DNA of 64,000 bases from Synechococcus sp. PCC 6312. Its GTDB lineage: Bacteria; Cyanobacteriota; Cyanobacteriia; Thermosynechococcales; Thermosynechococcaceae. Positions 43,893 through 50,198 of this stretch are shown one piece after another; positions within the stretch are counted from its first letter, which is position 1, and the number at the start of each line of letters is the position of its first letter. The stretch spans positions 3,047,407-3,111,406 of the forward strand of contig NC_019680.1 in assembly GCF_000316685.1 (NCBI RefSeq). The letters run 5' to 3'. The notes beneath the pieces were generated by a model. That model saw only the letters and a program-made list of their open reading frames with translations, had not been told where the DNA came from and searched no databases. The position numbers and the translations under genes are program-made.

Positions 43893-44325
43893 ATGAGCGA
43901 GCAATATCTAACAGATTTTAGTCCATGGATTAACCAAACAGTCCAGTTATTAAGGGAGCAGCGTTGGCAGGAAATTGATGTCTCAAATTTGATTGACGAG
44001 GTTGAAAGCTTGGGGAAAAGTGAACGACGGGGAATTGCCAGTCAACTCACTCGTCTTTTGCTCCATTTGCTTAGATGGCAATATCAACCAGTGCCGCTCC
44101 GATAGTTGGTTAGACTCGATTACGGATGCCCGGACTCAGATTGAATTGGCGATTGAGGACAGTCCGAGCTTAAAAAGTTTTCCAGCCCTACAACTTGCCG
44201 CGAGTTATCAACGGGCCTGGTCTCAAGCTGCGGCACAAACTGGGATCAAGGTTGCCCGATTTCCAGAGGTGTGTCCATACCCTTTAGAACAGGTCTTAAC
44301 CGAAAACTGGCTGCCAGAATGCTAA
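43893..44325 (+). pseudogene. DUF29 family gene with a frameshift
   Basis: From ATG 43893 the first part encodes the DUF29 start (DFSPWINQTVQLLREQRWQE, LIDEVESLGKSERR, LLLHLLRWQYQP) and stops at TAG 44103. The remaining family sequence continues in another frame (SDSWLDSITDARTQIELAIE, ARFPEVCPYPLEQVLTENWL). The switch lies near 44085-44095, best explained by one base gained or lost. Either a real inactivation or a sequencing error. Next to the Rpn gene, another accessory family. Confidence 0.8.
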
Positions 44326-44505: not shown

Positions 44506-47034
44506 ATGACTCCTGATACTGCTTTGGCTTGGCTCCAATCACAACCACTGTTTGCTGCCCTCAGTAATTCCTTGCAAGAAACCATTGCGACTCACTTAGA
44601 ATTAGTTTTTCTGGGTGCTGATCAACGCCTTACTCCTCCCAACACCAGGCCACTGGGATTATTTTTGTTAATTACGGGTGAGTTAGAAAGTCAAACCGGG
44701 ACAGGCCTGGGACAAACTGAAATCCTCTTTCCGGGCGCAGTTTTATTTTGGGCCGAACTTCTCCTCCAGCAACCGATTACCAACCCAATTACCGCCCTAA
44801 CCGATGCTGAACTCTGGTTATTACCACAGGAAAAACTAACCGAACTGATTAACCAGCACCCGGAACTGTCCCAGGCCCTCTCCCAGCAACTAGCCGCAGC
44901 GGTGACAACTCTCACCAATCAACTCAGCCTAGAGCAGGAACGCCAACACATTCTCCGCCCCTACATTGTTCCCCAGGCCAAGCGCGGGATTATTGGCAAA
45001 AGTCGGTATGCAGTCCAACTCCGGCAACAGCTTAAAACCGCAGCCCAAGGCCAGGAGAATGTGCTGATTTTTGGCGAACCGGGCCTGGAAAAAGATAACA
45101 TGGCGGCACTGATCCACTTCGGCTCCCGGCAACGGCGACAACCCCTCATCAAAATTGCCTGTGACAAACTGCAACTGAGTGGAGCAGAACTTTTTGGCCG
45201 ATCTGGGGGAAAACCAGGACTCTTGGCCTGGGTGGGAACGGGAACCATCATCCTCAACAATATTCAAGATTTACCTCCGCCCCTATGGCCAGCGATTCTC
45301 AATCTCTTAAAAACGAATACCTATCAACCAGTTGGGTCAACGGAGTCTAGCCCTGAAATTGCCTTGAGTCGCAACCAGGCCCGGATTATTTTAATTGCCG
45401 AAAAAGCAGATACTCGTTTGGAAAAGGTCATCTCCACCACGATTAAAGTACCTCCCTTACGCGTCCGCAAGGCCGATATTGAAGCCCATGTGGACTATTA
45501 CATCAGCCTGATTTGTCGGGCCCGCTGTTGCCAAAGAGTTTCCCTCACCCCAGAAGCCCTCCGCCGCTTACAAAGCTATGACTTTCCCGGAAATTTAAGA
45601 GAACTGGCCGGCCTGGTGGAGCGAGCCATCAACCAACGCGGCATTGAAGGGGAGTTAACCGAGGAAGTATTCTGGGCCGCTGAGGGAAAAAAACGCCGCT
45701 TTCGAGTCAATTTACTCAATGCCTATCCCTGGTTACGGAGTTTCCTGAGGAGTCCCGCATGGCCCAACTGGATCAACTATGGGATCACAACCTGGGTGTT
45801 TGCGGCCGTGGTAGCCATTCTCTTTTGGGGACCGCAAACTCGGAATCAAAATTTTGCTCTGAATTTGTTTTGGTGTTGGTGGTGGCCATTGATCCTGATT
45901 GGCTTTCCCTTTGTTGGGCGGCTGTGGTGCGCTGTTTGTCCATTCATGATTTATGGCGAACTGACCCAAAAACTCTCTCTCTGGCTCTTTCCCCGCACCT
46001 TACAAAAATGGCCAAGACAAACCGCCGAAAAATATGGGGCTTGGTTTTTATTTGGCCTGTTTGCCCTCATTTTTTTATGGGAAGAACTCTGGGATCTACC
46101 GAATACGGCCGCTCTGTCCAGTTGGCTTTTACTCCTAATTACGGGCGGGGCTGTGATTGGCTCCTTGCGCTTTGAACGGCGATTTTGGTGTCGCTATCTC
46201 TGCCCGATTGGGGGGATGAATGGCCTATTTGCCAAGCTTTCTATGACGGAACTCCGGGCCCAGCAGGGGACTTGTGGCGCAGAATGTACAACCTACCAAT
46301 GCTATAAAGGCGGCCCTGCTCTGGGGGAAGGGTTAGAAACGAATGGCTGTCCCCTCTATTCCCATCCAGCCCAATTAGTAGATAACCGCGATTGTGTTTT
46401 ATGTATGACTTGTCTCCAGGCCTGTCCCCATCGGTCTGTAGCCTTAAATTTGCGCCCCCCCGGCATTGAACTCTGGACAACTCATACGCCCCGCCATGCC
46501 GAAATTGCCCTGTTATTGTTGCTGTTGGGCGGTATTTTTCTCCATCATTTACCGGATTTAGAACGGTTGAGTGGCTTTAACTGGCATTTGGAGCAATTCT
46601 GGTTTCATGGCCTGGCTTCTGTGGTTGTTTTACTGATTGCGGCCCTGATTCCCCTCCTCGCCTATGGCATCACTTGGCTTTTGGCTCCAAAACTAAAACC
46701 CCGGTCTTGGTTGGAGTTGGCCTATGGCTATTTACCTTTGGTCTGGGCCGGAAATTTAGCCCATTACCTACCTTGGGGCCTGGGAGAAGGCGGCAAACTT
46801 TTACCTGTGACAGCCGCAACGATGGGTTTCAATAGCTACAATTTGCCGATCCTCGTCGCGCATCCAGCGGTGATTGCCTTTTTACAAGGGGTAACGCTTC
46901 TGTTTGGCCTGGGGGTGAGTCTCTGGTTGAGTCAAAAAATTGCCCGTCAATCCTGGAACCTTCTTTGGCCCCATCAGTTGGGCATTGGCCTGATTGCCGG
47001 GGCCTGTTGGTGGGTACTCTTAGGCACGACTTGA
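44506..47034 (+). CDS. Fusion: cNMP-like domain, degenerate NtrC-type AAA, membrane 4Fe-4S polyferredoxin
   Basis: 842 aa. Residues 1-~150 resemble a cyclic-nucleotide-binding beta roll (GLFLLITGELESQTGTG). From ~165 to 400 comes an NtrC-like AAA module: GEPGLEKD in place of GESGTGKE, GTIILNNIQDL in place of the usual GTLFLDEI, no GAFTGA loop, then PGNLRELAGLVERAINQRG. From ~420 it is a NapH/NosR-like membrane part with helices and cysteine motifs WCAVCP (~471), WCRYLCP (~561), CGAECTTYQC (~590), and CVLCMTCLQACP (~630), followed by more helices. It probably transfers electrons across the membrane under control of the cytoplasmic sensor part; its substrate is not readable. Start ATG 44506. 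Confidence 0.82.
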   Translation: MTPDTALAWLQSQPLFAALSNSLQETIATHLELVFLGADQRLTPPNTRPLGLFLLITGELESQTGTGLGQTEILFPGAVLFWAELLLQQPITNPITALTDAELWLLPQEKLTELINQHPELSQALSQQLAAAVTTLTNQLSLEQERQHILRPYIVPQAKRGIIGKSRYAVQLRQQLKTAAQGQENVLIFGEPGLEKDNMAALIHFGSRQRRQPLIKIACDKLQLSGAELFGRSGGKPGLLAWVGTGTIILNNIQDLPPPLWPAILNLLKTNTYQPVGSTESSPEIALSRNQARIILIAEKADTRLEKVISTTIKVPPLRVRKADIEAHVDYYISLICRARCCQRVSLTPEALRRLQSYDFPGNLRELAGLVERAINQRGIEGELTEEVFWAAEGKKRRFRVNLLNAYPWLRSFLRSPAWPNWINYGITTWVFAAVVAILFWGPQTRNQNFALNLFWCWWWPLILIGFPFVGRLWCAVCPFMIYGELTQKLSLWLFPRTLQKWPRQTAEKYGAWFLFGLFALIFLWEELWDLPNTAALSSWLLLLITGGAVIGSLRFERRFWCRYLCPIGGMNGLFAKLSMTELRAQQGTCGAECTTYQCYKGGPALGEGLETNGCPLYSHPAQLVDNRDCVLCMTCLQACPHRSVALNLRPPGIELWTTHTPRHAEIALLLLLLGGIFLHHLPDLERLSGFNWHLEQFWFHGLASVVVLLIAALIPLLAYGITWLLAPKLKPRSWLELAYGYLPLVWAGNLAHYLPWGLGEGGKLLPVTAATMGFNSYNLPILVAHPAVIAFLQGVTLLFGLGVSLWLSQKIARQSWNLLWPHQLGIGLIAGACWWVLLGTT

Positions 47035-49017: not shown

Positions 49018-50184
49018 CTAGCTTTCCCAGAGGTTTTGGGGAAGAAAGGCCCGATCCATAGCCAAGGGGGCAACGGGTTCGGTTAATAAAAATTTTCCCG
49101 CTTGGATCCAGGCCTGGAGTTCTTTGGCAACTTGCCGACCGAGATAAATACTACTTAACGGCGCAGTACGGACGGTTTTTCCTTCAATTTTGATCTTCCC
49201 AGACTTGAGTTGTGCATAGCTGACCAGGCCAAAGGTGGGACGGACTCGACGCGGAATCGAAAAATCCACCACCGGGGCCACCACATCCTCATCTTGTACC
49301 GCACAGTGATAAATAACCCGTTCATCCAAAACTGGCAGGGGAATTCCCACTCCTAACATTAAAGAGGAGCCATAATGCTTAAAATAGCAGCCCCGCACCC
49401 ATTCAGGCGTCATGGTTTTGGCATCACCAATTAAAGCCAGAGTCGCCGCTGGGCCAATGGGAGTTTGATTTTCTAGGCGTTTTTGTAAGGGAAAATGTTG
49501 CGTCCCTTCCCAGGCCACATAGCCAATCCCACCGCCTAAAAAAATCCGCGTCCCAATCCCAATTAAACGCAGGTGGGGATCATTCAACAACGGAGCCGAA
49601 GCCCCCGGATGGGCATAAACAGCATTACCCAATTGGGGTTGTAAAGGACCCAGATAGGTATGGAGCAGACGTTCCCCGCCATTAACCCCAACAATAAAGT
49701 TCTGATAAAGATTTCGGGGATTATAGAGATAAAACTGGTTGATGGTGTCTTTGGTAATTGTGGTTTCAAAGCTGGCCCGTGGATAACAGTCCGTCACTTG
49801 TCCCGTCGCCCGCAGTTGGACTGGCTTCCCGGCAATGAGATTGGCAATGACCTGCCCCCCGCCCCGTTCTTCCGTGTCTGTTTCGAGGGGAGATTCCACC
49901 GCCTTGGCTGCCCCAATGTACAAATCCACAGCCCCAAACCCCGTATAGGCCGGAACCCCATCTAACCAGCATTGCCGAAGCTTAATCGGCGGATCCGTTG
50001 GCCCCAGGTTGATCATCCCCCCTGATGCTTCCATCGCTTCAAAGGTGCCGGTGGTTACCACATCCACCTGTTTGGCAATTTCAGGAATCCCCAACTCCTT
50101 GGCCTGGGCTTTCACCTGATCGACTGTCCAAACCGTCGCTGTGCCAGCTTGGATTTTGGCGTTAATTTCGGCAATGGTGCGCAT
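49018..50184 (-). CDS. DUF39/HcyBio family protein (putative homocysteine biosynthesis)
   Basis: 388 aa of the DUF39 family, whose methanogen members are implicated in making homocysteine by sulfur insertion into aspartate semialdehyde. Motifs: VDVVTTGTFEAMEASGGMIN, GGGIGYVAWEGTQHF, and conserved cysteines (KLRQCWLDG, TDCYPRA, RGCYFKHYG). Methanogen proteins often carry CBS or ferredoxin domains at the C-terminus; this one does not. ATG 50184 is favoured over 50193. It starts 14 bases after the DUF1400 hydrolase stop, so the two form an operon. Confidence 0.85.
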   Translation of the reverse strand: MRTIAEINAKIQAGTATVWTVDQVKAQAKELGIPEIAKQVDVVTTGTFEAMEASGGMINLGPTDPPIKLRQCWLDGVPAYTGFGAVDLYIGAAKAVESPLETDTEERGGGQVIANLIAGKPVQLRATGQVTDCYPRASFETTITKDTINQFYLYNPRNLYQNFIVGVNGGERLLHTYLGPLQPQLGNAVYAHPGASAPLLNDPHLRLIGIGTRIFLGGGIGYVAWEGTQHFPLQKRLENQTPIGPAATLALIGDAKTMTPEWVRGCYFKHYGSSLMLGVGIPLPVLDERVIYHCAVQDEDVVAPVVDFSIPRRVRPTFGLVSYAQLKSGKIKIEGKTVRTAPLSSIYLGRQVAKELQAWIQAGKFLLTEPVAPLAMDRAFLPQNLWES

Positions 50185-50198
50185 GAAAACCATAAGCT

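Follow-up and report, generated by a model that had tools for sequence, protein, structure and literature searches.

Positions 44506 to 47034 (forward strand) of the window, the whole 64,000-nucleotide stretch of Synechococcus sp. PCC 6312 DNA that was analyzed, encode an 842-residue protein in which a CRP-like domain and a degenerate AAA+ module of the NtrC type are fused to a membrane polyferredoxin. The reading we favor, tentatively and with a probability a little short of evenly balanced, is that of a membrane-bound electron-transfer protein like NapH or NosR, a quinone-linked cytosolic Fe-S conduit gated by a pseudo-AAA cap. Each part comes from a known superfamily. Neither their combination, nor a membrane part of nine helices like this one, nor AAA inactivation throughout the family has been described, as far as literature searches show, and no published description or function of the fusion was found in the literature searched. 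Family members are mislabelled (e.g. "nitrogen assimilation regulatory protein"), and the family presents a case, open to testing, in which an ATPase of transcription activators would have become a control element of a membrane redox protein.

The gene has an ATG start, a TGA stop and no interruption between them, and it is single copy in its genome. Pfam finds, in order, cNMP_binding (28.7 bits against a cut-off of 27.5, a marginal score), Sigma54_activat (PF00158, 57.1 bits against 20.2), AAA_lid_14 (41.5 bits) and two stretches of Fer4_5 (PF12801, 30.9 bits against 22). NCBIfam models match a NorR/NtrX/PspF-type AAA module in the middle and a NapH/MauN-type membrane part at the end, all scoring far under their curated cut-offs. 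The AlphaFold2 model of the full-length protein has a mean pLDDT of 86.8. Full-length or near-full-length copies with 52-65% identity occur in more than 70 genomes of a 386-genome sample of the phylum Cyanobacteriota. Conservation of this extent, over a frame open along its full length, confirms from sequence that the fusion is genuine, neither chance nor frameshift, and marks it as an old and stable architecture; the three-part protein proposed in the earlier note is thereby borne out, together with its Pfam domains. (Directly upstream, at 43993-44325 on the same strand, lies a truncated DUF29 gene that covers only positions 64-138 of the 138-position profile.)

The family reaches many of the sampled cyanobacterial families, Gloeobacterales included, and 24 of the 29 genomes of the window's own order have a match. 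Full-length fusions turned up only in the photosynthetic class (Cyanobacteriia); the other classes of the phylum gave AAA-only or ferredoxin-only matches. A search of 72,556 plasmids returned only two full-length matches, both cyanobacterial, and the one scan of genome contigs that looked beyond Cyanobacteriota, made with exact short peptides, an insensitive probe, gave cyanobacteria only. Stand-alone proteins from another class of the phylum, which match residues 462-677, proved to be other polyferredoxins with extra ferredoxin repeats and a different C-terminus. One genus of the window's family shows recent losses, with the gene broken in one genome, a possible remnant in another, and absence from three more.

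Alignment and a quick tree divide the family into three groups: A, to which the window protein belongs; B, of about 900 residues and 38-40% identity to the window protein; and C, of about 700 residues, which lacks the CRP-like domain and comes from one family of small-genome cyanobacteria. Groups B and C are each set off by a fully supported branch, although the branching order of the three groups is unsure, the tree being midpoint-rooted with long branches meeting. Many genomes carry a group A and a group B copy together. Conservation is uneven along the protein: within group A the membrane part averages 67% identity, the lid 61%, the AAA core 56% and the CRP-like domain 32%, and the membrane part retains 49% identity from A to B and 47% from A to C.

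The AAA core (residues 156-318, positions 44971-45459, +) and lid (residues 319-395, 45460-45690, +) are modelled as NtrC type, with pLDDT above 90 across most of both, and Foldseek matches this model to FleQ, NtrC1, FlrC and NtrX. The core and lid fold is shared with bacterial enhancer-binding proteins (NtrC, NorR, PspF, FleQ) at 22-28% identity, and TM-scores to the FleQ and NtrC1 cores are about 0.7-0.8 by target length. The Walker A-like segment FGEPGLEKDN (residues 189-198, 45070-45099, +) exemplifies the form GEPGL(E/G)KDN seen in groups A and C, where the P-loop Thr is lost, the Gly mostly lost, and the Lys kept (Lys196 is invariant in 56 sequences); group B has an intact P-loop, GTGKT. 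The Walker B-like segment LNNIQDL (residues 250-256, 45253-45273, +) has lost the catalytic D and E; LNN replaces LDE in group A, and at this site group B shows D, N, V, A or E ahead of an N. The site of the missing GAFTGA loop (residues 227-240, 45184-45225, +) reads AELFGRSGGKPGLL. Aligned members of all three groups are missing the GAFTGA loop, the Walker B Glu and the FREDLYYRL arginine-finger stretch. Thus the motifs quoted beforehand (GEPGLEKD at residues 190-197, LNNIQDL, and no GAFTGA) are as stated, and the changes are common to the whole of group A rather than private to the window sequence. A Pfam scan of the 842-residue protein detects no helix-turn-helix, and the lid leads straight into transmembrane helices with no Fis/HTH domain behind it. 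ATP hydrolysis by the group A module appears unlikely. Six residues of the AAA part are invariant: Lys196, His204, Asp324, Asn363, Glu366 and Arg373.

These features bear on whether the protein could be a sigma-54-dependent transcription activator, as public records label its relatives. An NtrC-family AAA fold and lid are present, and a homologue from Aulosira carries such an annotation. A C-terminal helix-turn-helix is usual in sigma-54 activators, although a few lack one. Sigma-54 itself (PF04963) was found in none of 28 genomes of the window's order in a search that detected its positive controls, and sigma-54 and its activators were missing from all 29 cyanobacteria of a published survey (PMC3162934). 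Because GAFTGA, the arginine fingers, the Walker B Glu and any DNA-binding domain are absent, and because the 28 genomes have no sigma-54, the activator role is excluded so far as motifs and gene content can tell, and we give it practically no probability. The earlier note had argued both that cyanobacteria lack sigma-54 and that the module has lost activator function; both points hold, the first in the genomes surveyed, the second for the family as a whole. The fusion protein differs from NtrC, NorR, PspF and FleQ not only in these losses but in being membrane-bound and in having a host without sigma-54. Precedent for a defective GAFTGA in an AAA module that is still useful comes from TyrR, DhaR, HupR and VpsR, which are soluble transcription regulators, several of them shown to be sigma-70 dependent (PMC3162934); the fusion protein, unlike them, has no DNA-binding domain and is joined to a redox membrane protein.

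The N-terminal domain (residues 1-120, 44506-44865, +) resembles the cNMP domain of CRP/FNR proteins in having a beta-roll-like fold followed by a long helix, here the linker helix of residues 120-153 (44863-44964, +). It differs from them in lacking a helix-turn-helix and the residues of the canonical cNMP phosphate-binding cassette (Gly-Glu...Arg-Ser/Thr-Ala), in place of which the window protein has AELLLQQPITNPITA, unconserved in the family. The Pfam score rises to 54.0 bits in a group B member. This is the fastest-evolving part of the protein, and two group A lineages that were checked have dispensed with it completely: stop codons there stand ahead of a new start that lies just before the AAA part. 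Further group A matches start near residue 122. The CRP-like part is, by this pattern, an optional module. The label "cyclic-nucleotide-binding-like" therefore stands only in part: the domain does pass the Pfam cut-off, but the cassette is absent, the sequence evolves fastest here, and several families have lost it.

The membrane polyferredoxin domain (residues 399-842, 45700-47031, +) has nine predicted transmembrane helices. Its first Cys-Pro motif, at the cytoplasmic membrane edge, is CxxCP (WCAVCP, with C475 and C478; 45925-45942, +) and its second is CxxxCP (WCRYLCP, with C562 and C566; 46186-46206, +). Two [4Fe-4S] motifs follow (C590/C594/C599/C615 and C630/C633/C636/C640; 46273-46425, +), and beyond them E666 and E761 (invariant) with H680 and H753 (mostly conserved) form a candidate quinone or cofactor site (46501-46788, +). 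All 12 Cys residues and both Glu residues are found without exception in groups A, B and C. Counts of Lys plus Arg are 3.8, 3.7, 11.7, 2.5 and 1.1 for the even loops and 1.4, 0, 1.2 and 0.9 for the odd loops; by the positive-inside rule, the N-terminus and all predicted Fe-S motifs are strongly predicted to be cytosolic. Conservation and topology thus support the earlier proposal that membrane electron transfer is the core of the protein. The AlphaFold2 model of this part has a pTM of 0.85 and is poor over the cluster motifs; the full-length model is weak at the first of them (residues 588-620, pLDDT below 50). Searched against PDB structures and viral models, the membrane-part model has no significant fold relative (best E 1.4 in the PDB), and PDB sequences provide no relatives beyond ferredoxin motifs.

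NapH, NosR and RdhC (PceC), of the Fer4_5 family, are the nearest described kind. In common with the fusion family they have a membrane module that bears two Cys-Pro motifs where it meets the membrane edge; NapH and NosR also have two cytosolic 4Fe-4S motifs, represented in the fusion family by eight invariant Cys whose clusters are predicted; the best NCBIfam match of the membrane part is NapH/MauN TIGR02163, at 46.7 bits against a cut-off of 213. The fusion protein is set apart by its first motif (CxxCP rather than CxxxCP), by five extra transmembrane helices behind the clusters, by the lack of an FMN domain and by the cytosolic CRP-like and AAA domains in front. NapH, NosR and RdhC are carriers, or proposed carriers, of quinol electrons, RdhC having first been thought a transcriptional regulator (PMC5928378), and modular reuse of NapH-like systems has precedent (PMC8238504).

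Gene neighborhoods separate the groups sharply. Group A shows no conserved neighbors, no non-self family being present at more than 5 of the 49 loci. Its upstream regions have no motif in common (NtcA, CRP, FNR, ChlR and SqrR-like sites and dyads were sought), only HIP1, GCGATCGC, being prominent. Sulfur and low-oxygen genes noticed by eye at single group A loci (CysH, rhodanese, SulP, SsuA, methanethiol oxidase) show no enrichment when counted. In the window, a gene of the sulfur-incorporating homocysteine biosynthesis family HcyBio (PF01837, 484 bits) lies 2 kb downstream at 49018-50193 (-), a link that was not found beside group A genes elsewhere. By contrast, cysK stands by group B in 31 of 46 loci (24 times directly downstream on the same strand) versus 3 of 49 group A loci (p = 2e-10, an optimistic value as the loci are related). 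Other neighbors of group B, hardly ever near group A, include rhodanese (16 of the 46 loci), petC (10), psbA (9), SQR-like proteins (8), ArsR (8), ETHE1-like proteins (6), cydA (5) and HO/HemN (5); DUF3365, nitronate monooxygenase, TauE-like proteins, cydAB and AcsF also recur. These neighbor annotations come from sequence reading and clustering, with Pfam checks for a few, plus two annotated cyanobacterial plasmids, which carry the same neighbor set around group B. In one genome the group B gene adjoins an SQR-like protein and a heterodisulfide-reductase-like run (a CCG protein and 4Fe-4S proteins). Of the 21 group C loci, 4, belonging to two genera, have AcsF and ArsR close by, and one of these genera also has hemN directly upstream and psbA, ADO and DUF3365 nearby; the psbA there is 86% identical to the group-B-linked kind.

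In Acaryochloris, the gene sets psbA1-DUF2892-petC-rhodanese and acsF-ho2-hemN are induced by low oxygen (PMC5295598); the passages on them make no mention of the fusion gene. Judged by gene content, group B sits in sulfide/micro-oxic gene islands, and these islands of a sister group are the best available clue to the function of the family. Together with part of the group C neighborhoods and the low-oxygen induction in Acaryochloris, they suggest photosynthesis under sulfide and low oxygen as the family's sphere, which for group A we infer. Group B also serves as a marker of such islands in cyanobacteria.

In the favored mechanism, electrons would pass, by way of the clusters, between the quinone pool, met at the conserved Glu and His residues of the additional helices, and a soluble partner in the cytosol. 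The dead NtrC-type AAA+ module, joined in most members by the CRP-like domain, would form a regulatory unit capping the membrane part, and this pseudo-AAA cap may bind a nucleotide or a partner without hydrolysing ATP and so set whether electrons flow. Most speculative is the setting, possibly reducing, low in oxygen or sulfidic, which is carried over from group B and partly from group C. A fuller version, in which a signal-gated valve from quinone to ferredoxin is set by the dead AAA module and a CRP-like ligand domain, the group B copy serves photosynthesis under sulfide or low oxygen, and the membrane fold has no solved relative, is doubtful as a whole.

A close rival to the conduit is a redox sensor or transducer, possible though rather unlikely, whose polyferredoxin would read the state of plastoquinone or of sulfide and oxygen and whose pseudo-AAA and CRP-like part would signal to a protein partner, with no net electron transfer. 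Fe-S clusters in a membrane module would suit a sensor just as well, the regulator-derived N-terminus (56% identity in its AAA core, Lys196 invariant) has been kept across the depth of Cyanobacteriia down to Gloeobacterales, and the lone group A gene, with no enzyme partner adjoining, favors sensing. The pattern of conservation favors the conduit, as it peaks in the membrane part rather than in the part that would give the output; Pfam detects no output domain (HTH, kinase or cyclase), and for the comparable RdhC, which used to be regarded as a regulator, electron carriage is now the better explanation (PMC5928378).

Improbable, by comparison, is the view that the AAA and CRP-like parts survive only as a structural leftover, regulating nothing, on a plain membrane ferredoxin. 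The rapid evolution and repeated loss of the CRP-like domain would suit it, as would the membrane part standing alone elsewhere, but no full-length cyanobacterial member seen lacks the AAA part, which retains 56-61% identity, and a leftover would not keep its six invariant residues. Slightly less probable still is a remodelling or assembly factor powered by ATP, in which hydrolysis by the AAA part would drive the insertion or activation of a redox partner in the membrane. The well-known AAA modules of the NtrC fold work as oligomeric motors, the Foldseek matches tie the module to that fold, and group B offers the intact P-loop and sometimes a Walker B Asp. Against this, the Walker B Glu and the arginine-finger stretch are gone from all groups, and groups A and C have in addition lost the P-loop Thr and, mostly, the Gly.

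Relatives of the membrane part that stand alone, with neither AAA nor CRP-like part, occur in Deinococcus ficus and, at a greater distance, in haloarchaea, and from this distribution it appears that the membrane part can work alone. The Deinococcus ficus protein (WP_027463891, 452 residues, on plasmid pDFI1) is 31% identical over residues 402-829 and shares the extra transmembrane helices, the conserved Glu and a neighboring His. Its gene shares 4 bases with that of a His-rich exported protein, an overlap that suggests the latter as a metal or redox partner. Sulfurovum has a relative that is more distant still (22% identity to the Deinococcus protein over 74% of its length), encoded at the head of a cluster with a second 4Fe-4S protein, a 2-hydroxyacyl-CoA dehydratase-type protein and the activase of the latter. 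The Sulfurovum cluster is plasmid-borne, with two 4Fe-4S proteins in all, and also includes a TonB receptor and a TauE-like protein.
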